Position numbers and translations under genes: made by a program
The notes under the pieces: model-generated
The model's database searches: none
What the model saw: only the letters and a program-made list of their open reading frames with translations
Told to the model about the DNA's origin: nothing
Shown here: positions 3,480 to 46,086 of the stretch, piece after piece
Position numbering within the stretch: the stretch's first letter is position 1
Layout of the letters: each line of letters begins with the position of its first letter
Assembly: GCA_000770645.1 (NCBI GenBank)
Contig: JQID01000203.1
Location: 1 to 46,872 of the forward strand
Reading direction: 5' to 3'
Origin: Desulfosporosinus sp. Tol-M
Lineage (GTDB): Bacteria; Bacillota; Desulfitobacteriia; Desulfitobacteriales; Desulfitobacteriaceae
Length of the DNA: 46,872 nt

Positions 3480-3688
3480 GGGCTTTCAAACTACTCCAGG
3501 TTTTCCCGCGTCATTTCATATCCCCCTTTGGCTCCTCACGTTTTTCCGCCGCTTTCTCAACGGCGGGAAGAAATTCGGCCGGTTCCTCTCCCAGCATTCC
3601 TTCACCGTGTACTTCATTCACGTGCCGGTCATCGTTTTCCTGATGCTGGCGTTGCACGGTTTGCAGGCGCTACCGCAGCTAAAGTTCC
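3480..3688 (+). pseudogene. Fragment of an acyltransferase-3 (OafA-like) gene, C-terminal part
   Basis: One plus-strand frame reads FFRRFLNGGKKFGRFLSQHS, then FTVYFIHVPVIVFLMLALHG and LQALPQLKF. The pattern 'FLS..SFTVYFIHVPVIV' is characteristic of the last membrane helices of acyltransferase-3 family integral membrane proteins that O-acetylate surface polysaccharides. There is no upstream part and the frame stops being family-like at about 3685, exactly where the antisense response-regulator sequence begins. GC content is higher than in the neighbours. It is a gene scrap left by a rearrangement. Confidence 0.55.
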
Positions 3689-4351
3689 AATTCCCCACAC
3701 CACCTTCAAGTATTTCGGCTCTTTAGGGTTGATTTCAATCCGTTCTCTTATTTTTCGAATATGGACGGCGACTGTATTTTCCGGACAAAAAGCAGTTTCC
3801 TGCCATACTTTTTCATATATTTCATCGATGGAATATACCCTGCCCGCATTGGCTGTCAACAGCTTCAGGATCTTATATTGGACCGGCGTAAGTTTTACCT
3901 CCTCGCCATCAACCGTTACCTGCTTACCCTGATCATCAATCACCAGTCCGCCTGTTTAATAGACATTACTTTTACTTTCCAGGCTCCCTAAGCTGGTATT
4001 GCGTCTGAGCTGGGACTTCACCCTGGCCATTAATTCCAAAGCATTGAACGGCTTAGTAACATAATCGTCCGCCCACATATTTAAGCCAATTATTTTGTCC
4101 GTATCCTTAGCTTTTGCCGAGAGTATAATAACCGGTATATTCTTATCTTCTCTGAGCTTCATAGTTGCCCTGAGCCCATCCAGGTGCGGCATCATAGTAT
4201 CCATAATCCCCAAATGGACCTCATTTTCTTCAACTACTTTTAAAGCTTCCAGGCCATGCGCAGCTTTAAAAACTTGATAACCCTCGTATTCTAAGTAGAT
4301 GCTTATCGCTTCTAAAATATCTTTATCGTCATCGCAAACCAGGATATTCAT
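3686..4351 (-). pseudogene. Response regulator (OmpR/PhoB class), copy 1, nonsense mutation and lost C-terminus
   Basis: Start is the ATG at 4351 (GGGAGG eight bases upstream). The receiver domain reads MNILVCDDDKDILEAISIYL, with the phospho-aspartate in GIMDTMMP and the conserved lysine in YVTKPF. At codon 132 a TAA stands where copy 2 (14977-15579) has an AAA lysine (SNVY-stop versus SNVYK). Beyond it the frame stays open through a complete winged-helix domain (KLTPVQYKILKLLTANAGRV ... HIRKIRERIE ... YLKVVWGIG) and then runs, at about 3686, into foreign sequence before the last residues. Unless the stop is suppressed, only an isolated receiver domain is made. No sensor kinase is nearby. Confidence 0.75.
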
Positions 4352-4456
4352 GCCGTATCCCTCCCACCTCATGATCTATCCAATCATATCACACCCCCTG
4401 TTCTTTTCTTTAAGGTAATCATATCAACTAAATCTTACGATAAGCTTGCCCTAATT

Positions 4457-14797: not shown

Positions 14798-14935
14798 GTA
14801 TGTATTGTTTGCAATAATGGAAAGCATCCCTTTTGAACCTAAGAACCCCCAAGTTATTCAAAAATCTAATCATAGTGTCTGCCAACGCATAAAGTGGAAT
14901 AGAAAAAGATTCTTTTAGAAGTGAGGAATTTGTCG

Positions 14936-14977
14936 ATGCAGGTATATGTTTTCGGCCTCGGACACATTGGTTTAGCA
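14936..14977 (+). pseudogene. First 14 codons of a nucleotide-sugar dehydrogenase gene
   Basis: AAGTGAGG precedes an ATG and the codons read MQVYVFGLGHIGLA, the Rossmann-fold start (VFGLGHIGLP) of UDP-glucose / UDP-N-acetylmannosamine 6-dehydrogenases. At about 14977 the frame runs into the antisense of response-regulator copy 2. So the start of a surface-polysaccharide gene was joined to the broken 3' end of a regulator. Short, but the match with start signals is specific. Confidence 0.45.
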
Positions 14978-15579
14978 ATTTTTCTGATATGGACGGCGAC
15001 TGTATTTTCTGCACTAAAGGCCGTTTCCTGCCATACTTTTTCATAAATTTCATCGATGGAATATACCCTACCGGCATTGGCGGTCAACAGCTTCAATATC
15101 TTGTATTGGACCGGAGTCAGTTTTACTTCATCGCCATCAACCGTTACATTATTACTCTCATCATCGATCACAAGTCCGCCGGTTTTATAAACATTACTTT
15201 TAGTTTCCAGGCTTCCCAATATTGTATAGCGTCTTAGCTGGGATTTCACCCTGGCAATTAACTCCAAAGGGTTAAAGGGCTTGGTTATATAATCGTCCGC
15301 TCCCATATTTAAACCAATAATTTTGTCAGTATCCTCAGATTTGGCTGAGAGCATAATAACCGGGATATTCTTATCTTCTCTAATCTTCATAGTTGCCCGC
15401 AGACCATCCATTTGCGGCATCATAATATCCATAATAATCAGATGTATCTCATTTTCTTCTGCTACTTTTAAAGCTTCCAGCCCATGTGCCGCTTTAAATA
15501 CTTGATAGCCTTCGTTTCCCAAATAAATTGTGATCGCCTCTAAAATTTCTTTATCGTCATCGCAAACCAGAATATTCAC
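14977..15579 (-). pseudogene. Response regulator (OmpR/PhoB class), copy 2, truncated in the DNA-binding domain
   Basis: Open frame from ATG 15579 (GGGAGG upstream). The receiver domain is complete: MNILVCDDDKEILEAITIYL, phospho-aspartate in IIMDIMMP, lysine in YITKPF. The winged helix proceeds through KLTPVQYKILKLLTANAGRV to AVHIRKI, residue 201, where homology to copy 1 stops; 36 unrelated residues (AKPMCPRPKTYTCIDKF onward) follow to a stop at 14866. Loss of the recognition-helix end and wing should abolish normal DNA binding. It is over 80 percent alike to copy 1 by eye, including upstream DNA, so a duplication is clear. No histidine kinase is adjacent. Confidence 0.75.
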
Positions 15580-20542: not shown

Positions 20543-21136
20543 TTATTTTGCTTTCTTTAATTCTCTAACATCTTGTTCCAACCTGAATGTTTTGCCGGAT
20601 ATTAAATCAACACTGTTGAGGAGGGTATTTATATCAGTCTTTATAGACTCCTGACCAACCACTAACTTCTCTACCTGCCTGGCAACATTTTCAATATCAC
20701 TGCGGTCTAAAGCACCCAACTTAGAAATCTGTTCCTCCACACTGTCAAATCGTTGATCTATAGTATCAAATCGTTGATCTACACTCCCAAATCGTTGATC
20801 TACAAGGTCAAATCGTTGATCCATACTCTCAAATCGTTGATCCATACTCTCAAATCGTTGATCTATAGTATCAAATCGTTGATCTACACTCCCAAATCGT
20901 TGATCCACACTCTCAAATCGTTGATCCACACTGTCAAATCGTTGATCCATACTCTCAAATCGTTGATCCACACTATCAAATCGTTGATCCACACTATCAA
21001 ATTGTTGATCTACACGGTCAAATCGTTGATCCACATTCTCAAATCGTTGATCCATATTGTTTTTCAAACTCTCAAACTCTTTGAACAGATTAGAGAATTG
21101 TTCTACCATAAACTCTTGAAATTTTTCATTCTCCAT
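20543..21136 (-). CDS. Heptad-repeat coiled-coil protein, DQRFxxV repeats
   Basis: 197 residues. Residues about 26-132 are fifteen consecutive seven-residue units of the type VDQRFDS / MDQRFES, a continuous coiled coil with hydrophobic V/M/I and F at a and d positions. At DNA level this is a 21-base tandem repeat (about 20745-21060), with a higher-order 105-base duplication (GSVDQRFDTIDQRF occurs twice, five units apart). The N-terminus (MENEKFQEFMVEQFSNLFKE) and the tail (VARQVEKLVVGQESIKTDIN) are also helical. Similar repeat proteins occur in phages and bacteria; no function can be assigned. The unit number probably varies among strains. Confidence 0.75.
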   Translation of the reverse strand: MENEKFQEFMVEQFSNLFKEFESLKNNMDQRFENVDQRFDRVDQQFDSVDQRFDSVDQRFESMDQRFDSVDQRFESVDQRFGSVDQRFDTIDQRFESMDQRFESMDQRFDLVDQRFGSVDQRFDTIDQRFDSVEEQISKLGALDRSDIENVARQVEKLVVGQESIKTDINTLLNSVDLISGKTFRLEQDVRELKKAK

Positions 21137-24294: not shown

Positions 24295-25515
24295 TTAGGA
24301 ATGCACGTCGTCAATGCAGCCCTCCAGGGAAGGTAATTCCTCCTCTTGATAGTGTGGCTCTCCCAGGGCATTAATTTGAATATTTCCGGCCTGCCCGTAC
24401 TGATAAAGTTGATCGAGCACTTCTACGGCCGCACGAATTCTGGTTCTTAACAGGTAGCCGCGGTGTTCCGAGGCTTGAAGTATTTCCCTTACATCAATTT
24501 TTGGCTGCCAGTCATAGGCGCGGCCGTGAAAATCCTGGACCTGTTGAAGAACGGCTAAGATTTCATCCTGGTTCAAAGGTTGAAGTTGGGGGGCGGCAAT
24601 AATTGCGTTGAGTACCTTTTCAATAGGCTCCCGTTGGGCACGATCAACATAGGTTGTTGCGAGGTTTTCATACTCATGCTTGGATTCTATAACGTCCTCT
24701 TGATATGATGAACCTAAAGCAAACATGGTAAAGGTGGATTCGAGACTGGAATATTTCTCTGGAAACAAGAAAGCTGCCATATTATTATAGGCTTTGAGGC
24801 GGGCTTTTTTGCTCAGACGACCTACTAATTCAGTTTCATCAAAGAGGATAACCCAACCATTGTAATCCAGTAGTTTGAAGAGGCGACTTAAAAAGGCAAA
24901 GTAGTCCATGCTGTGACGTGTTTTACTAAAAGGTACGGAGTACTTGACCGTCTGGGCAAAAATCCGTTTATAAATCTTTCGCAAGAGAGCGTTATTAATG
25001 AAATCACCCTCGAGATCCGCCATAAGTAAGTATTTTTCATCTTGATCATCGACATGCAAAAAGGAGCGCAAAACGTAAAACAACTTGTCGGTCTCCAAGT
25101 GCTTACTGCTAAAGGAGAGCAAATCCAGAGCACTTGGATTATTCGGGGTAATATCTTGTACTACATGTTCAAATCCCGGTTGCAGACGTCCGGGCAGGTA
25201 CGTATTGCTAACCAGTTTCTGATAAGCGAGATAAAGTTTATCAAATGGTGTCTCCTTACTGAGGGATATCAGGCTGACCACCATATTATTACTATGGGCT
25301 AAGTTAAACACCGTATTCAAAAGGTGAGTTTTTCCCTCTCCGTACTTCCCGGAAACAACCATACCGCCGGATTCTCCGGTGTCCCTGACTTGGTCTAACC
25401 TACGTGAGATCTGCCCCATTAATTCCGGACGGGCAGAGGAGAAGTAATGTCCAACTGCCCGGGAAGACACTCCCGAACGCAAGGCCTCAATGACTCTCTG
25501 CGCTTCAAAATCCAT
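24295..25515 (-). CDS. P-loop ATPase, DUF2791/BrxD-like
   Basis: 406 residues. The N-terminus, FEAQRVIEALRSGVSSRAVG, is the hallmark of DUF2791 proteins, the family of BrxD in BREX phage-defence loci. Walker A is SGKYGEGKTHLL (about residue 55), Walker B with catalytic glutamate is GWVILFDETELVG (about residue 225), and a sensor-like strand FTMFALGSSY follows. The C-terminal part is helical and probably a winged-helix region. The start overlaps the stop of the upstream ATPase by one base (TAATG), so the two are made in step, perhaps as a hetero-complex. No PglX methylase or PglZ is near, so this is not a standard BREX locus. Confidence 0.78.
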   Translation of the reverse strand: MDFEAQRVIEALRSGVSSRAVGHYFSSARPELMGQISRRLDQVRDTGESGGMVVSGKYGEGKTHLLNTVFNLAHSNNMVVSLISLSKETPFDKLYLAYQKLVSNTYLPGRLQPGFEHVVQDITPNNPSALDLLSFSSKHLETDKLFYVLRSFLHVDDQDEKYLLMADLEGDFINNALLRKIYKRIFAQTVKYSVPFSKTRHSMDYFAFLSRLFKLLDYNGWVILFDETELVGRLSKKARLKAYNNMAAFLFPEKYSSLESTFTMFALGSSYQEDVIESKHEYENLATTYVDRAQREPIEKVLNAIIAAPQLQPLNQDEILAVLQQVQDFHGRAYDWQPKIDVREILQASEHRGYLLRTRIRAAVEVLDQLYQYGQAGNIQINALGEPHYQEEELPSLEGCIDDVHS

Positions 25516-26735
25516 TATTCTGCTCCTCCCTGTATGGTAGTCAGGACTACTTTCCTGGGCAACGAAACTTTACCGAAGCGGGACCGGGCATGAAGTTCTT
25601 CCGCCGTGTTCCGACTTATATGAGTAGCGCCTGCATTGAAGCGGTTTATGACCTGGCCCAGACGGGTGGACATTTTGAGAATATTTTCCGGAGTATAGAC
25701 TTCATCAATCAGACGGTCCAGATCCACAATGTCGGCAAAACGGTTAAAACGTTGACTTTCAATTTCATTTTGGATACGCATCCACAATGCCTGATATGAC
25801 TTCGGACCCTTAACGTCATCGTCCATCAAACTGCGATCAAAGGAAAAAACGAACATGGTATGTTTTAAGGTATCTATTTCATCGATTAATTCGCGAATAC
25901 TTTCATAAGCATCTTCCCGTTTCAAGCGGGTATAGCGAATGGTTTCTTCACTATTAGCACTCACCAATACTTCCATATTATCAATCGAGATCACCAGACC
26001 CTTAAATCCTGCCAGACAGCAAACCTCTACCAGCGAACGCAGCATGTGCCTAGCATTATATTTGGTGATTTTACTCGGAGACAAACCCAGGCGGCGCAGG
26101 GAGGATAATTTTGCTTCCCGACTTCCTTCCAGCCACAACATCAACAGCTTTCTGTTGGCCTCTTCCAACATGGGATGTCCCAAAATTCCGCCGGTCAACA
26201 AGGCGCAGGCCACGGCAAAATTATTATCAATCAGGGGATTAGCCAGAAAGAAGCTATCCAGCTGCTGCCTAATCTCCCGCTTGGTTAAAGGATCCAGCTG
26301 TCCCTGACTGGATAAATAATCCGCAAAGTTAATACCTTCCGGGATAATCTCAGGCTCATACCCCAACTGCCGGATAACCTCGTGACTGCAGAATTGCAAG
26401 CGTTCCAGCAGGCGAACCTGGTGCAAAATGGCTATATAGATTTCCTTAAAATCATGAAGCCAGATTTGCCGGGCTGAGAGACTAACCGAGATATAGCCCA
26501 TCTTTTCTGCTTCCATGGCCAATATTTCCAGGAAGTGGGTCTTTCCACTCCCGGTGCGGCCAGTCACGAACTTTATCTTACTGCCACCCCTGGCCAAGTA
26601 GTTTGCCAGATATTTTTCCTTCCAAAAATCCATGATAAACTCGCTGCCCACCGATATTTCCTGCAGAATTTCACGATTACCGGGAGGCTGACCCTTCATT
26701 AAGTTAGCTATGGCTGATTTGATGTCATTTTCCAA
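25515..26735 (-). CDS. P-loop ATPase, partner of the DUF2791 protein
   Basis: 406 residues, exactly as long as the next gene. Walker A is VTGRTGSGKTHFLEIL (about residue 60), Walker B GLVISIDNMEVLV (about residue 245, with asparagine-methionine-glutamate after the aspartate) and a sensor strand TMFVFSFDRSL. N-terminal FIMDFWKEKYLANYLARGG and the layout resemble AAA/STAND-like ATPases of BREX type rather than ABC proteins. Middle helices (about 105-230) are unrecognised. Equal size and motif order suggest that the two ATPases are ancient paralogs that diverged strongly. It follows the coiled-coil gene after a 184-base gap filled by a seven-base tandem repeat. Confidence 0.72.
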   Translation of the reverse strand: MENDIKSAIANLMKGQPPGNREILQEISVGSEFIMDFWKEKYLANYLARGGSKIKFVTGRTGSGKTHFLEILAMEAEKMGYISVSLSARQIWLHDFKEIYIAILHQVRLLERLQFCSHEVIRQLGYEPEIIPEGINFADYLSSQGQLDPLTKREIRQQLDSFFLANPLIDNNFAVACALLTGGILGHPMLEEANRKLLMLWLEGSREAKLSSLRRLGLSPSKITKYNARHMLRSLVEVCCLAGFKGLVISIDNMEVLVSANSEETIRYTRLKREDAYESIRELIDEIDTLKHTMFVFSFDRSLMDDDVKGPKSYQALWMRIQNEIESQRFNRFADIVDLDRLIDEVYTPENILKMSTRLGQVINRFNAGATHISRNTAEELHARSRFGKVSLPRKVVLTTIQGGAE

Positions 26736-26753
26736 AACGAGTACCCCCTAAAT

Positions 26754-26872
26754 TCAGAAGTCAGAAGTCAGAAGTCAGAAGTTGGATGTTGGATATTGGA
26801 TGTTGGGTGCCAGATATCAGATTTCGGATTTCGGATGTCGGATGTCGGATGTCAAAGATGTCAAAGATATAG
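26754..26872. repeat. Heptanucleotide tandem repeat (about 17 units)
   Basis: Seven-base units drift from CAGAAGT through TGGATGT and TCGGATT to CGGATGT along about 119 bases, between the coiled-coil gene and the first ATPase gene, inside the presumed operon. Such repeats expand and shrink by slippage. Confidence 0.85.
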
Positions 26873-26919
26873 ATTAGGACGCCATAGGTCAAAGGTTGCA
26901 TGGTATGCTAATGCTAATC

Positions 26920-27744
26920 TTAATCCAACTCAGGTGCTGCCGTCTCGAAAAAACGGATGGTTGCCAAATACTGCTCCCGCCCATCCTGATCCAAAATGCG
27001 GATAGATTTATTTATATTGCGACTGGGACCAAATTGAAACTGCCGTCCATCTTCACAGGTACGTAAGTCAGCAGCATAAAGACGTGCCAGGTCAAAAGCA
27101 AAACTCTGCAGATCATAATCTTTACGAAAGCGACGCATAGGGGTTAAAAGGGCATAAAGACTCTTTAAATAAATATCCCCTACTTTCGAAGTTGATGTTT
27201 TACCCTGGTTTTGTTTTATAAGCATCAGATCATAAGCTGCGGCAAGCTCTTTGACAAAGCCTTTGGGATCAAAATTAGCCTTCAGCAATTTATCCCTGCC
27301 GGCCTTAACGTCTTGCACAAAGGCCAGAGGGCGCAAGCATTGAACCCGTTTTCGATCCAGGTATAAGTCCAGATCCTCAATATCAATCCTAACCTTGAAC
27401 GGAAACATCTCATAAGTTGGATAGTCTCCTTTAACGTCCACTTCCAGGCGATCACAATGAGCAAGCAATTGTTCTGCAAAGTCGCCATTTTCGACATATT
27501 CGCGAATTCCGAATTCATCGACATGCTTCTGCATGTCTTCCAATAAGGTTTCCTGTTCCTTCAGATAAACCTGCAGAGCCGCCCGGTCCTTGGTCCAACT
27601 CTTAAGATCACCCTTCTCCATATTTTTACACAAGCTCTTAACCACTTTTTGCTGACTCTTGATCTTATCCTTTAGTTCTTTCTCAATGCTCAACATTTGT
27701 TTATATAAATTTTCATAATCTTTCATATCTTCATAATCTTTCAT
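26920..27744 (-). CDS. Coiled-coil protein of the helicase-ATPase cassette
   Basis: 274 residues. Residues 1-90 are a long coiled coil (MLSIEKELKDKIKSQQKVVK, KDRAALQVYLKEQETLLEDM). A mixed domain follows with FPFKVRIDIEDLDLYLDRKR and a helical part FVKELAAAYDLMLIKQNQ; near the end is FQFGPSRNINKSIRILDQDG. No catalytic motif is visible. The start codon region repeats MKDYED/MKDYEN; GAAAGGA lies about 13 bases upstream. It opens the minus-strand transcript shared with two ATPases and is divergent from the helicase, so it may be the structural or target-sensing part of a complex (inference). Confidence 0.65.
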   Translation of the reverse strand: MKDYEDMKDYENLYKQMLSIEKELKDKIKSQQKVVKSLCKNMEKGDLKSWTKDRAALQVYLKEQETLLEDMQKHVDEFGIREYVENGDFAEQLLAHCDRLEVDVKGDYPTYEMFPFKVRIDIEDLDLYLDRKRVQCLRPLAFVQDVKAGRDKLLKANFDPKGFVKELAAAYDLMLIKQNQGKTSTSKVGDIYLKSLYALLTPMRRFRKDYDLQSFAFDLARLYAADLRTCEDGRQFQFGPSRNINKSIRILDQDGREQYLATIRFFETAAPELD

Positions 27745-27972
27745 ACTTAATTAACATTCCTTTCTTGAGGCACAAAACGTCATGAAAGCATTTCTTTCAG
27801 ACTTTTCTTTCAGACTTCTGGACTCCTTCTTCTTATTTTAATCCGATTACTAAGGCAAGAATTCGACAAAAATTTAAATTTCCCTTCTCACTTGCCCCTT
27901 GCCTCCCTAATTAAGTAATGGCATACTGAGAATATAATATTGTGATTATGAGAGAAAACAGGGAGAGAACAT
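27745..27972. promoter_or_regulatory. Divergent promoter region of the cassette, with conserved leader
   Basis: A TATAAT at about 27933 and a GGGAGAG site serve the helicase. Toward the coiled-coil gene, CTTTCAGACTT is doubled (27800-27825) and 27756-27790 closely matches the thiD leader (31876-31907); the shared piece could encode a ten-codon leader peptide MTFCASRKEC ending just before the gene. Confidence 0.45.
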
Positions 27973-29622
27973 ATGCCTTTTTTCGATAAAACTTTTTCCG
28001 AGAGGGATAAATCTACCGCAAGGGTATATGGTCAACTGAAAAAAAAGTTATTTACTTGGCAGGAGGAATGTCTGGATATCTGGTTTGACAATCAGTGTAA
28101 AGGGGTTGTCAATGTTGTCACCGGGGCAGGCAAAACTATCCTTGCCTTGGGAGCAATTGCCAGGCTGGAATATATACATCAAAAGCCATCATCAGCCTTA
28201 AAGATCAAAATTATTGTTCCTAAGGTTTTTCTGGCAAATCAATGGGTTAAGAGTCTGCAAGATGACCTGGCTGTTTCCAGGGATGATATCGGAGTATACT
28301 CCGGGGTGCACAAAGACCCGCCTTCCCGCAAATATATGATTTATGTAGTGAACTCCGCGCGTGCTACTTTAGCGCAGCAAATACTTTCCGACTATCATCA
28401 GGGCAGCACAATATTGTTGATTGCGGATGAGTGTCATCACTATTGCAGTCCGGAAAATTCACGCATCTTCGATTTTATAGCCCAAATCCCCAGCCAGGGT
28501 CAGGCCACACGCTACTATGCCCTTGGATTATCCGCTACCCCGGAAACTGCAACCTTTAATGAAACTCTGCTTCCTGCCTTAGGACCAGAGATCTACAAAT
28601 ACAGCTTTGTCGAGGCCTTGAATGCTGATATAATAAGTCCCTTTGCAATTTTTAACATAAAGTTAAATTTCACACCGGATGAAAAGTACCAATATCTGGA
28701 CCTAAGTGAACTACTAACCCGCGCCCTGGAAAGACTTATGCATCGCTGTCCTTTCCTGAAAGGCTTAAACCGGGTACGGTATTTTGCCAACCTGGAGCAA
28801 TTGGCGCAAAGTTCTGAGGATACCTTCATAGCTGCTCTGGCCCGTTCGGTACTTATGCTTGCCAACAAGCGCAAAGATTTGGTCTACAGGGCCGAATCCC
28901 GGATAAGCTGTGTCAATAATCTGGTGACGCTGCTGCCGCGAAGTTCAAAGATCCTGATTTTTTGTGAAAGAATTGCTGTGGCGAACACAATTTATGAACA
29001 GTTACAGTACTTATTTCCGGAACAGGTGGGACGTTATCATTCCGAAATGGACGAATGGAGCCGCAAAGAAATCCTGCGTAAATATCACAACGCACATATT
29101 CGCATCCTGGTAAGCTGCCGCGCCCTGGACGAAGGTTTGAATGTACCTTCAACCGATATCGGGATCATCGCCTCCTCCACCAGCAGCACCCGGCAACGAA
29201 TCCAAAGGCTGGGCAGAATCCTGCGCCAGTCTGGTATAAAGCACACGGCCAAACTTTATTATCTGTACATCGGTGCTTCCAACGAGGAAAAAGACTTACT
29301 GGCCGAAATTTCTCGCGACCTGGCAGGAATAATTCCCATCCTGGACCTGGAATATGATCAAGATCGCCAGACCTTTTTTCATTCCTCCTACCAAGCCTTA
29401 GTTGATCAAGTCATAGCCTATACTCTGCATAAAGGCTGGAGCACGAAGATTATTGTGGAGATAACTAAAAACCTGGAGCGCGGTAAACTGGGGTGTGATT
29501 GGTGGCTCTCCGAGCAGAACTGCCGCTTGAAAATTCAGAATGCCCCCTCCCGTTCAGAACGGAATTACTGGGTGAGCATGTACTTACTAGTGCAGGCCAG
29601 TCTTGGTCGGTTAGCTGAGTAG
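27973..29622 (+). CDS. SF2 DECH-box helicase
   Basis: 549 residues. A Q-like motif FTWQEECLDIWF precedes motif I VVTGAGKTILAL; Ia is IIVPKVFLANQW, II is LLIADECHHYCS, III is LGLSATPE. The second RecA domain has ILIFCERIAVANTIYEQL (IV), ILVSCRALDEGLNVPSTDIG (V) and QRIQRLGRILRQS (VI). The overall order fits XPB/restriction-subunit-like DNA translocases. A C-terminal helical part (about 460-549) carries FHSSYQALVDQVIAYTLHKG and may bind a partner. Divergently transcribed from the coiled-coil/ATPase operon, with 228 bases between. In BREX type 2 loci a BrxHI helicase accompanies BrxD; the pairing here is suggestive but the helicase itself is not clearly BrxHI. Confidence 0.88.
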   Translation: MPFFDKTFSERDKSTARVYGQLKKKLFTWQEECLDIWFDNQCKGVVNVVTGAGKTILALGAIARLEYIHQKPSSALKIKIIVPKVFLANQWVKSLQDDLAVSRDDIGVYSGVHKDPPSRKYMIYVVNSARATLAQQILSDYHQGSTILLIADECHHYCSPENSRIFDFIAQIPSQGQATRYYALGLSATPETATFNETLLPALGPEIYKYSFVEALNADIISPFAIFNIKLNFTPDEKYQYLDLSELLTRALERLMHRCPFLKGLNRVRYFANLEQLAQSSEDTFIAALARSVLMLANKRKDLVYRAESRISCVNNLVTLLPRSSKILIFCERIAVANTIYEQLQYLFPEQVGRYHSEMDEWSRKEILRKYHNAHIRILVSCRALDEGLNVPSTDIGIIASSTSSTRQRIQRLGRILRQSGIKHTAKLYYLYIGASNEEKDLLAEISRDLAGIIPILDLEYDQDRQTFFHSSYQALVDQVIAYTLHKGWSTKIIVEITKNLERGKLGCDWWLSEQNCRLKIQNAPSRSERNYWVSMYLLVQASLGRLAE

Positions 29623-32810: not shown

Positions 32811-32840
32811 TAGCTATCGGATAAAAGCAAGTATGGCTTA

Positions 32841-32921
32841 CTCCCTACGGCGGCATTATCCGCATCAGGTAAAGGGTCGAAGTTGATTGCTTCCTCTCAG
32901 CCTGCTAAAGCAAGCTCCCCT
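32841..32921 (-). promoter_or_regulatory. TPP riboswitch
   Basis: On the minus strand the conserved elements occur in order: GGGGAGC, GCAGGCTGAGAGGAAGC with the CUGAGA pyrimidine-sensing loop, GACCCTTTACCTGATGCGG and ATAATGCCGCCGTAGGGAG with the pyrophosphate-binding GGxUAAUxCC region. It controls thiE-thiD; thiamine pyrophosphate binding should switch the operon off. Confidence 0.95.
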
Positions 32922-33004
32922 GAAATATTTATATCATTGTTCCACGGTATCACGCCTGAACAACAAAGTCAATTATCAATGAAACCCATTTGATTACGGG
33001 AAAA

Positions 33005-42320: not shown

Positions 42321-42357
42321 AAGGGGGACGTGTGCCGAATTGGACACATCCCCCTTT
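42321..42357 (+). terminator. Hairpin with T run between metA and the rhodanese gene
   Basis: AAGGGGGACGTGTGCC and GGACACATCCCCCTT pair with one mismatch; TTTT follows on plus. It lies 16 bases past the rhodanese TAA, so it may terminate that minus-strand gene too, though its T run there is weak. Confidence 0.6.
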
Positions 42358-42372
42358 TGTTCCGTTATGATT

Positions 42373-43341
42373 TTATTCCATGGGCATATTTGGATCTGCT
42401 GACCACTCGTAAATAGATGCTTCGTAGTTTCTAACTTTATCAAAGCCAACGGCTCTGAGGGCCAGACTAAAATAGCCTGATCTTATTCCCATAGTTCAGT
42501 AAACTACAAAATCGTCTTGAGGACTTACTCCCAAATCCGCCATCATCTTCGCTATTACTTCAGGGGATTTTGGAGTTGCATTTTCATTAAGTATTGATGA
42601 CCATAAGAGGTGCTTTGCTCCCTGAATATGCCCTCCTCTGGCTTCTCCCGAGTCCTGGCTTCCTTTATATTCCTTATCTGATCTAACATCTATAATTACT
42701 GTTTTGCCAAGGTTTGCAGCCACATAAGCCTTGTCTGCTGAGTAGCTTTTATCAAATTCTTTAAGAGTAAGCCCTGCAACTGGAGTGGGCTTTGGTGAGG
42801 ATTCTTTGTTCATTTCATAGCCCAGTTCTTTCCAATAGGGATTCCCTCCGTATAAAAGCTTAACATTGTCAAGCCCAGCCATTCTGAGTTGCCAGACATT
42901 TCTTCCATCAGAACCCGGCCCAGGAAGCACATTTGACGTAAATACCACAAGTGTGTTGTTAGTCACGCCGTATGACTCAAGTTTTTTAGTAAGTTCTTCT
43001 TTGTCCAAAGTAGTTCCCCAAAGAGGATCTCCTGGTTTACCGACTATTTTTGAAAGTCCATGAAAGCCGATTCCAATTGCTCCCGGTATATGTCCCTTTT
43101 CATAAACATCCGGCTTGCTTGTATCAAACAATATTACAGACTTCTCTCCCAGCTTCTTTTTAAGTTGCTGGGGAGTAATAAATATATCGCCATTTTTGTA
43201 GACCGAAAGATCAGCTTCAAGTACAGTTTGACTTGTGTCTGCAGAATTCGGAGGTTTCTGCGACAAGGTTCCACATGCGCTTATTATTAACATTAAAGCT
43301 AATAAAAGCGTCCCTATACAGATGAACTTTTTTTTAAGCAC
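42373..43341 (-). CDS. Tandem rhodanese lipoprotein, probable selenoprotein (TGA at codon 282)
   Basis: 322 residues if TGA at 42498-42496 is read as selenocysteine. GTG start, GAGGAGG nine bases upstream, overlapping the previous gene by eight bases. A lipobox (LIISAC) anchors it outside the membrane. The first rhodanese domain (VILFDTSKPDVYEKGHIPGA) lacks an active-site cysteine (VVFTSNVLPGPG). The second (VIIDVRSDKEYKG ... GGHIQGAKHLLW) reaches DDFVVY, then TGA, then TMGIRSGYFSLALRAVGFDK and VRNYEASIYEWS to a TAA at 42373. The TGA sits exactly where the catalytic cysteine of CxxGxR stands. Hairpins follow it (42463-42479 and 42440-42458). Probably a sulfurtransferase or polysulfide-handling protein. 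Confidence 0.82.
42440..42479 (-). promoter_or_regulatory. Candidate bacterial SECIS hairpins
   Basis: Downstream of the TGA the mRNA can form CAGGCT-AUUUU-AGUCUG (42479-42463, starting 17 bases after UGA) and a stronger TCAGAGCC-GUU-GGCUUUGA (42458-42440) whose loop begins with G, a feature of bacterial SECIS elements. The second loop is 45 bases from UGA, farther than the usual range, so which one acts is open. Confidence 0.4.
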
Positions 43342-44068
43342 TTTTTTTAACCTCCTCGTTCTTATCTTTCCAAAGTTGCTTAATTAGCACAATAAATACG
43401 CTAACAGCAAATAATATTAATAACCCAAATACAAACGTCTTAGTAGTACCGGTTAACATACCTCCAATATAGGAATAAACAATAGTTGCCGGCAGTTGTC
43501 CAATACCTGTAGCGATAAAGAATGGCCAAAATCCCATAGAGGTTAAACCTGCTGCATAACTTACAATGTCAAAAGAGATAAATGGAAGTAATCGGGCTAT
43601 TATGATCGCGTATTTTCCATATTGCTTGAAAAATTGATCGACATTTTCCAAAGCTGTACGGGAGGTCAGTTTCTCTACTGCTCCTCTTCCAAAAAACCTT
43701 GCAATATAAAAACACAACCCTGCCCCTACCATAGCACTCGACCACGAAAGAATCGCACCGTAAACCCAACCAAACAAACCGGCGTTTGCAAAAGTGATAA
43801 GAAAAGCGGGCAATGGTGCTATAACAGATTGAAAAATCATCAGCAGAAAAGACACTATCGGGGCCCAAATACCAAAGCCCAAAATATAACCCCTGACTAA
43901 ATCTACATCCATATTGCTGAGGATGAAAAAACCTTGGTTGACATTAATTTTAATTACCGGAACAAAAAAATATAATGCCGACACTGCTAACAATACCAGT
44001 ATTTTCACTATGTAACTACTCAGTAAGCTTTTTACTACACTCACCCTCCTTTTTACCAGTATAAGCAT
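43334..44068 (-). CDS. TVP38/TMEM64-family membrane protein
   Basis: 244 residues, about six membrane segments. SNARE-associated (DedA-like) domain: PIVSFLLMIFQSVIAPLPAF, LITFANAGLFGWVYGAILSW and AIIIARLLPFISFDIVSYAA, with the conserved GxxxG and R-x-x-P elements (ARLLPF). These proteins are thought to move or scramble lipids or transport small molecules. An AAAAGGAGGGTGAGTG string lies at codon 7-10 of the frame without a well-spaced start after it, so the exact start is uncertain. Its end overlaps the rhodanese start, so both are co-translated; selenium- or sulfur-linked loci often pair these two families. Confidence 0.85.
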   Translation of the reverse strand: MLILVKRRVSVVKSLLSSYIVKILVLLAVSALYFFVPVIKINVNQGFFILSNMDVDLVRGYILGFGIWAPIVSFLLMIFQSVIAPLPAFLITFANAGLFGWVYGAILSWSSAMVGAGLCFYIARFFGRGAVEKLTSRTALENVDQFFKQYGKYAIIIARLLPFISFDIVSYAAGLTSMGFWPFFIATGIGQLPATIVYSYIGGMLTGTTKTFVFGLLILFAVSVFIVLIKQLWKDKNEEVKKSA

Positions 44069-44693: not shown

Positions 44694-45731
44694 ATGAAGG
44701 TTGGCATGAAGATGTGGATTGGAAAGGTCATACACAGATTAAACTGGAAGACTGTAGCCCGGACGATTATTTCAGCCGGGCTACTGGCATGGCTTTTTTT
44801 CCTGACAGACTGGAAAGATTTGGCCCAGGTCTGGAGCCGGCTCGAACCGGAATGGATTCTGGCAGCGGTAGCCGCGATTGTTATTTCCATGATTATCAGT
44901 GTAAGGAAATGGCAACTGGTGCTGGATGCGCAAAATATCCGCCTGGCATGGAATGAACTCTGGAAGGCTTATTGGGCAGGATTATTTTTTAACAATTTTT
45001 TACCTTCCAGTATCGGTGGCGATGGGCTGAGAATTTGGTGGGTCGGTAAAGTTGCCCGGGATAATTCCGGCGCTGCTACCTCGGTTATTGTGGAAAGGAT
45101 TTTAGCCACGACCGGTTTGGCCTTAACCGGTCTGGTGGCCGCGGCCTTTGTCAACAGGCCGGATAACCGGATTGTAATATCAGCAATTATATTATTCATA
45201 AGCTTAATTGTCGTGAGTTTGGGGTTGCTGGGCTTAATCTGTCTGGGGATATTCCCCCGTTGGGCAGAAAACAGGAAGGGTAAAATAACCTCTTTTTTAA
45301 GGAAAATGGCAAGACATGGTCAAAAACTCAAACATCAACCGGGCAGATTGGTCAGGGTAGGAATCCTGTCTGTGGCGTTCCAATTGGCGGTAGTATTGGT
45401 TAACTACTGTATTTTTCGGGCTCTGGAATTGACTGCTCTAGCCTGGTGGGATCTACTGTATGTAATCCCGGTAATATCTGTAGCAGCGATGTTACCATTG
45501 GGAATAAACGGTTATGGGTTAAGGGAAGGTGCCTATGTGGCAATGCTGGGCATGTATCAGGTTCCGGCAAGCACAGCTATCTCAGCATCCTTGTTGTTTG
45601 TTTTTCTGGTAAGTCTGTGTAGTCTTTATGGAGGAAGTGCCTGGTTACACTATCGAGTTAAAGGAGAATTAGCCGATGTCAAAGTCCAAAGCAACACAAA
45701 TAGTTCAGGAAGAGATGAAGTCTGGGAATAA
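44694..45731 (+). CDS. Lysylphosphatidylglycerol-synthase-like (UPF0104) membrane protein
   Basis: 345 residues, about eight membrane helices. The LPG_synthase_TM family signature is clear: AYWAGLFFNNFLPSSIGGDG and LRIWWVGKVARDNSGAATSV with IVERILATTG (the N.fLP...GGD..R and ERi.g elements), and late SVAAMLPLGINGYGLREGAY. These are flippase-like domains without the aminoacyl-transfer part; relatives are involved in lipid or glycan handling. Starts at 44694, 44706 or 44712 are possible; GAAGG favours 44706. The end overlaps the next gene by 56 bases. Confidence 0.87.
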   Translation: MKVGMKMWIGKVIHRLNWKTVARTIISAGLLAWLFFLTDWKDLAQVWSRLEPEWILAAVAAIVISMIISVRKWQLVLDAQNIRLAWNELWKAYWAGLFFNNFLPSSIGGDGLRIWWVGKVARDNSGAATSVIVERILATTGLALTGLVAAAFVNRPDNRIVISAIILFISLIVVSLGLLGLICLGIFPRWAENRKGKITSFLRKMARHGQKLKHQPGRLVRVGILSVAFQLAVVLVNYCIFRALELTALAWWDLLYVIPVISVAAMLPLGINGYGLREGAYVAMLGMYQVPASTAISASLLFVFLVSLCSLYGGSAWLHYRVKGELADVKVQSNTNSSGRDEVWE

Positions 45732-46086
45732 CTGTTGTCAGGCCGTACTGGTGGCCGCAAGCAAAATTTGGGATATCTCTCTCGACCCCGATATTTTGGC
45801 TGCTGCCGGTCTGTTCGGTGGTGGAATCGGCAGTGGCTGTACCTGTGGTGCCCTCACGGGAATGGTAATGGCCGCTGGGATTATGAATCGATATCATCCT
45901 CATCCGGCCGGTTCTAAATTACCTCAGCAGCTCCACGACCAGTTTAAAATGGCATTTGGCGCAACCTGTTGCCGGGTTATCAGAAAAAAGCGCCCCCTCA
46001 TCCAAAGTATTGGCAATGGGGCCTGCATAGATTTAACCTCTAAAACAGCAGAGATTTTGCTGGCTGAATGGGAGGGATTTCATTAA
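45676..46086 (+). CDS. C_GCAxxG_C_C family protein
   Basis: 136 residues; AAAGGAG nine bases before the ATG. MKSGNNCCQAVLVAASKIWD, AAGLFGGGIGSGCTCGALTG and FGATCCRVIRKKRPLI show the family's cysteines (N-C-C-Q, G-C-x-C-GA, C-C); NGACIDLTSKTAEIL closes it. The family, found in anaerobes, is thought to handle redox or metal centres, with some members carrying a signal for selenium or sulfur metabolism; no activity is proven. Overlaps the end of the upstream gene, so translation is coupled. Confidence 0.88.
   Translation: MSKSKATQIVQEEMKSGNNCCQAVLVAASKIWDISLDPDILAAAGLFGGGIGSGCTCGALTGMVMAAGIMNRYHPHPAGSKLPQQLHDQFKMAFGATCCRVIRKKRPLIQSIGNGACIDLTSKTAEILLAEWEGFH

Follow-up and report, generated by a model that had tools for sequence, protein, structure and literature searches.

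A minus-strand gene of Desulfosporosinus sp. Tol-M almost certainly encodes a selenocysteine (Sec)-containing rhodanese, in which an in-frame TGA would be decoded as Sec at residue 282, the catalytic position of the second of two rhodanese domains. The gene lies in a stretch of 46,872 nucleotides (contig JQID01000203.1, positions 1 to 46,872; hereafter the window), and its reading as a selenoprotein gene rests on the sequence evidence for its reading frame, the conservation of the TGA, the presence of Sec machinery in the genome, constraint at the RNA level and a conserved gene pair. An earlier note made from the letters of the window had proposed a Sec-active second domain; each of its proposed checks that was run favoured the Sec reading, from which we infer Sec insertion itself.

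An in-frame TGA in a two-domain rhodanese

The earlier note had placed a TGA at the catalytic Cys of a rhodanese, and both the coordinates and the translation proved exact (Table 1). Translation table 11 gives a product of only 281 aa; past the TGA, the same frame runs for 40 more codons (TMGIRSGYFSLALRAVGFDKVRNYEASIYEWSADPNMPME) up to a TAA. The read-through product aligns with A. vinelandii RhdA over both domains (E 7.6e-25), and in alignment with solved rhodaneses the TGA stands opposite the catalytic Cys (U-TMGIRSG vs C-QTHHRSG). Pfam Rhodanese PF00581 matches the 322-residue product in two stretches (101.5 bits), and Pfam, alignment and Foldseek agree on two rhodanese domains with the catalytic residue in the second, which is the COG2897/TST layout. 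An AlphaFold2 model built on six sequences (pLDDT 78.9) matches the thiosulfate sulfurtransferases CysA2/CysA3 in Foldseek (TM 0.72 by query). The first domain, described as dead in the earlier note, does lack the catalytic Cys, but there is nothing special in this, as an inactive N-terminal domain is the normal state in two-domain rhodaneses. Most homologs with an intact N-terminus have a lipobox-like motif by pattern matching. These motifs across the family support the earlier suggestion of a surface lipoprotein, which would be anchored on the outer side of the cytoplasmic membrane; the enzyme is presumed to be extracytoplasmic. The terminator scan did not call the GC-rich inverted repeat 3' of the gene.

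Table 1. Features of the Sec-rhodanese locus, in coordinates of the window.
Feature	Position	Strand	Remarks
TVP38/DedA (VTT domain) membrane protein	43334..44068	-	8-nt overlap between its stop and the start of the Sec-rhodanese gene
Strong Shine-Dalgarno GAGGAGG and spacer (9 nt) ahead of GTG start	43342..43357	-	
Sec-rhodanese lipoprotein CDS (predicted)	42376..43341	-	322 aa with UGA as Sec; start GTG 43341-43339; stop TAA 42375-42373; n=26 full-length TGA homologs
Lipoprotein signal peptide, lipobox I-S-A-C ending at Cys23	43273..43341	-	pattern only
N-terminal rhodanese domain without catalytic Cys	42802..43185	-	Pfam, alignments, structure model; bounds approximate
C-terminal catalytic rhodanese domain with predicted Sec, residues 206-315	42397..42726	-	Pfam, Foldseek
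In-frame TGA, residue 282, catalytic-Cys position of C-terminal domain; motif U-T-M-G-I-R-S-G	42496..42498	-	column TGA in 26/26
Hairpin 1, between UGA and hairpin 2; GAUC..GAUC-type stem	42460..42482	-	weaker than hairpin 2
Hairpin 2, proposed SelB-binding SECIS hairpin: UCAGAGCC-GUU-GGCUUUGA, 8 bp, loop 42450-42448	42440..42458	-	
GC-rich inverted repeat 3' of the gene, possible transcript end	42323..42354	-	no strong T-run

Homologs were sought at the level of the order and of the phylum, as well as in the Peptoclostridium order and in Fusobacteriota, and the TGA form was found in 27 genomes: three of Desulfosporosinus, one further genome of the same phylum (G184), 17 of the Peptoclostridium order (that of G318) and six of Fusobacteriota. 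TGA occupies the site in all 29 clade copies that cover it (26 full-length and three partial), and the TGA homologs all end 40–41 codons beyond it. Because the same codon is TGA and the end is shared in 26 independent genomes from two phyla, the arrangement is neither chance nor an assembly error, the latter being ruled out by the homologs in independent genomes. Codon identity between the window gene and that of D. metallidurans is 31/40 after the TGA and 139/251 before it, and with BRH_c37 it is 26/40 and 164/251, respectively; conservation behind the TGA about equals that ahead of it or exceeds it. Close homologs that stop at the TGA or decay behind it, which the earlier note had named as grounds for rejecting a Sec reading, were looked for and neither was seen.

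The 26 full-length TGA proteins form one clade (support 100/99) apart from eight Cys proteins (28–39% identity). Replacement of the TGA by Cys, a further check named in the earlier note, was found in more distant homologs: five outer homologs have a Cys codon (TGT/TGC) at this position, and one genome (G657) carries the gene in both forms, with TGA in one copy and TGT in the other. The Enterococcus gilvus and Ilyobacter genes examined encode Cys at the site, not Sec. Plasmid and phage records yielded distant matches only, the best at 33% identity among the matches listed. Within the genus, the Sec-rhodanese gene was present in 4 of 30 genomes, one of them with a truncated copy, and is therefore dispensable; selB was present in 28 of the 30. 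The truncated copy, in Desulfosporosinus sp. BG (L024/L031), is cut at residue 252 by unrelated sequence. D. metallidurans, whose gene is 80% identical to that of the window, also has a decayed extra copy, a C-terminal fragment (L027), and a Peptoclostridium MAG has a partial second copy (L062).

Constraint and structure in the RNA downstream of the UGA

At residues that are themselves the same, codon identity was 0.50 ahead of the UGA, against an expected 0.44, and 0.72 over the 20 codons after it, against an expected 0.42. All twelve of the most constrained 8-codon windows, out of 300, begin 5–16 codons past the UGA, those at the very top 8–13 codons past it, and the strongest synonymous constraint in the gene falls 8–18 codons past it, over hairpin 2. 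Among 20 distinct sequences no other conserved helix exceeds 4 bp, and this hairpin is kept in all of them: seven of its eight pairs are present in 20/20 and the eighth in 17/20, with a compensatory change from A-U to G-C (columns 43/57) in the most divergent member. Its stability was reached by 61 of 11,500 synonymous shuffles, and the 63-nt region after the UGA, with a minimum free energy (MFE) of -16 to -22 kcal/mol, has a median z of -3.1 against synonymous shuffles. The Cys homologs examined (L025, L026, L037, L038 and L063) are without hairpin 2. No Rfam family matched at this locus.

The bacterial SECIS (bSECIS) model has 16–37 nt between the UGA and the apical loop, an upper stem of 4–16 bp, an apical loop of 3–9 nt, an MFE <= -7.5 kcal/mol and a G in either of the first two loop positions, often with G or U next, in the pattern N1-G[G/U]-N-N2 (PMC13188914). 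Hairpin 2 lies within the ranges for stem (7–8 bp) and loop (3–5 nt). In 20/20 sequences a G occupies one of the first two positions of its loop, which is mostly G-U-U or G-G-N, with GU in Bacillota-type and GG in Fusobacteriota sequences. In most sequences its energy is also within the limit of the model (-8.9 to -9.3 kcal/mol in most, -7.0 to -7.1 in four). Its distance from the UGA to the loop falls outside the model, at 45 nt, or 44 nt if the closing C-G pair is taken as loop. With its loop 45 nt off and another hairpin intervening, hairpin 2 would probably be missed by bSECISearch at the standard 16–37 nt. The intervening hairpin 1 has an inner stem that covaries (A-U/U-A/C-G at columns 24/31) and is slipped by one base in Desulfosporosinus; folding out its 23 nt would leave a spacing of ~22 nt for hairpin 2. 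The SECIS for which the earlier note had proposed a search at 42400-42500 has a counterpart here, in that hairpins with SECIS features are present, the best of them hairpin 2.

An alternative that leaves the Sec protein as it is would make hairpin 1 the SelB element, in an extended form (columns 8–11 with 40–43) and at ordinary spacing, with hairpin 2 serving some other end, e.g. to slow the ribosome. Hairpin 1 loops do begin 17–22 nt past the UGA, inside the published range, and its stems are mostly kept and covary, but not one of 20 sequences has a G in the first two positions of the inner loop, the alternative loop of 15 nt is above the 3–9 nt of the model, and synonymous constraint falls on hairpin 2, whose loop also fits the N1-G[G/U]-N-N2 pattern. 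We regard this alternative as unlikely; hairpin 1 as the sole SECIS, with no such G in its inner loop, was set aside and is kept as a rival. In the arrangement that we favour, centred on hairpin 2, the UGA would be decoded by SelB with Sec-tRNA-Sec, aided by an RNA element immediately downstream; hairpin 2, with its G-U-U loop, would be the likely SelB site, and hairpin 1 would shorten the path so as to bring hairpin 2 to a working distance.

Sec machinery and other readings of the UGA

The host genome is a 3.0 Mb draft in 206 contigs (98.9% complete, 8.3% contamination), and its closest named relatives are Desulfosporosinus. The earlier note had proposed a search for selA, selB, selC and selD in the same genome, and all four are present: tRNA-Sec (selC) scores 64.9 bits, with anticodon tca in ARAGORN, and selA (554 bits), selB (363 bits) and selD (398 bits) are all above curated cut-offs. 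On one contig selB adjoins tRNA-Sec, and the 88% identity of its product to the SelB of a second genome in the genus rules out contamination as the origin of this selB/tRNA-Sec contig. Among the TGA genomes tested, tRNA-Sec was above cut-off in all but one, a TGA-form Psychrilyobacter MAG of 1.9 Mb that is probably incomplete (G319), in which none reached the cut-off. The host genome also encodes a formate dehydrogenase (FDH) alpha subunit (G000:C10:22310-24334, L064) with an in-frame TGA at L064:1894 and, at the usual distance behind this TGA, a hairpin whose loop is GGUCU. An in-frame TGA is also present in another FDH-like gene (C71, L066).

Reading of the UGA by a near-cognate tRNA (Trp or Cys), or under a reassigned code, would require no SECIS, and downstream structure can stimulate readthrough. 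We nevertheless consider it highly improbable. The genome has a complete Sec pathway together with an FDH of Sec type, and outer homologs align a Cys, the usual partner of Sec, with the UGA. TGA is also a working stop in the window, where it ends 10 of the 32 ORFs that reach 200 aa (not all of these ORFs being genes). Equally remote is a UGA acting as a true stop, either in a pseudogene or in a functional protein of 281 residues that ends ahead of the active site: table 11 does give an intact frame of this length, and degraded copies exist (L024 and the partial L027 and L062), but the 40–41 codons after the TGA are conserved to a fixed end point in 26 genomes of two phyla, and a truncated protein would be without the active-site loop.

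Gene neighbourhood and relation to known rhodaneses

In nearly all full-length loci, across phyla, a TVP38/DedA gene lies directly upstream of the Sec-rhodanese gene, its product mostly 63–77% identical outside the genus. Downstream in the window lie metA (by Pfam) and, by our reading, cysE-, Rrf2-, metY- and cysK-like genes; these genes are a sulfur-assimilation neighbourhood. Divergent from the DedA gene, the window encodes a flippase-like TIGR00374 protein and a C-GCAxxG-C-C family protein (44694-46086, plus strand), and genes of both families are neighbours of the pair in other genomes too. The pair in G184 has on one side a YedF selenium-metabolism gene and a PhnC/PhnE-like ABC transporter, and on the other two glycosyltransferases of the TIGR04282/TIGR04283 type (by similarity to annotated BRH_c37 genes), of the ‘arsenosugar’ type, and a three-domain rhodanese. 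This dense cluster (L074, 4792-15818), in which a flippase-like protein, a C-GCAxxG-C-C-like protein and a radical SAM protein are also encoded, looks like a selenium or arsenic module. Several loci encode a relative of the ‘dicluster-binding protein near Sec’ (NF045663) that scores under the cut-off of this model. In one Fusobacteriota genome, a gene directly upstream of the DedA/Sec-rhodanese pair encodes two rhodanese domains fused to VTT (DedA) (L078:9959-11488, minus strand).

Elsewhere in the window, two BrxD/SngB-like ATPases, an unmatched protein and a PbeA-like helicase lie side by side (24295-29622), a possible anti-phage defence locus. A TPP riboswitch (65.4 bits) stands upstream of thiamine genes (32825-32931, minus strand). 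Two similar response regulators (3629-4372 and 14866-15579), the first split over two frames and the second with an odd C-terminal end, suggest probable decay of one or both, and a protein of many (V/M)DQRF-type repeats is encoded at 20543-21136 (minus strand), where the other strand also has a long open frame.

From its family, the Sec-rhodanese would probably carry out sulfur transfer. Any particular substrate, physiological role or partner role would be a guess and, taken singly, a doubtful one; neighbours linked to selenium, sulfur and arsenic do not favour one over another. In the most likely course of events, the product would be exported, lipidated and anchored in the membrane. There Sec282 would accept a sulfane sulfur (or selenium) atom from a donor on the outer side, forming a selenosulfide (E-Se-S), and this intermediate would hand the atom to a membrane-located acceptor; the upstream-encoded TVP38/DedA protein would be the partner. 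Taken as a whole, the proposal that a two-part SECIS (a spacer hairpin folded out and a SelB hairpin 45 nt away) and an exported Sec-rhodanese/TVP38/DedA pair make up a dedicated extracytoplasmic sulfur or selenium relay is tentative, and we hold it to be possible rather than probable.

The classical rhodaneses RhdA (A. vinelandii), CysA2/CysA3 (M. tuberculosis) and bovine rhodanese share with the window protein the fold, the two-domain layout, the inactive N-terminal domain and the position of the active site, but have Cys in place of Sec and are only 22–28% identical to it; to our knowledge, they are not lipoproteins. ExtH (NF040901), the rhodanese of a selenite/tellurite reduction operon, is also distinct, the window protein scoring 35.9 bits against a cut-off of 200 on its 430-position profile. 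TsoB rhodanese/DsbD-like (NF045694), NF041203 and COG0607 forms are likewise predicted Sec rhodaneses with other Sec motifs (UxxxxU, CxU), and the window protein is below the cut-offs of NF045694 and NF041203; indeed, no model of NCBIfam 20.0 reaches its cut-off on it. A TVP38/TMEM64 and Cys rhodanese pair lies beside arsB/arsC on Enterococcus gilvus plasmid pCR1C, in reversed gene order, and COG0586 DedA-rhodanese fusions have been described (PMC10127716).

Sec-rhodaneses as a kind are already known, as Sec-containing COG2897 rhodaneses were predicted from Sargasso Sea metagenomes in 2005 (three sequences, none in genomes sequenced by then; PMC1088965). The GOS metagenome yielded 8 plus 1 (PMC2398784), and a rhodanese-related sulfurtransferase selenoprotein (COG2897/cd01449) is listed as ‘form 4’, with a UxxG motif (PMC13188914). 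Marine form 4 and the window protein are alike in being of COG2897 type, with predicted Sec, a UxxG motif and a bacterial SECIS predicted downstream. In contrast to form 4 from marine metagenomes (Sec sequences such as AACY01016424, MQG53192 and MCY3690685), here compared by description, the window clade is made up of predicted lipoproteins, occurs in Bacillota-type and Fusobacteriota genomes, is paired with TVP38/DedA and has a far-placed SECIS hairpin. None of the papers in the library searched names Desulfosporosinus, rhodanese and selenoprotein together. As far as we searched, the lipoprotein clade, the TVP38/DedA pairing and the far-placed SECIS hairpin are new, and the use of Sec in an extracytoplasmic sulfur or selenium relay was found described for no rhodanese.

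The standard code ends this gene just ahead of its active site, and annotation that stops there hides the enzyme. The family ties a Sec-rhodanese to the genome of a named strain, D. metallidurans OL, and would connect Sec with an extracytoplasmic sulfurtransferase as well as with the TVP38/DedA proteins, which are themselves poorly understood. It also offers a test of the maximal distance from the UGA at which the loop of a bacterial SECIS may lie.
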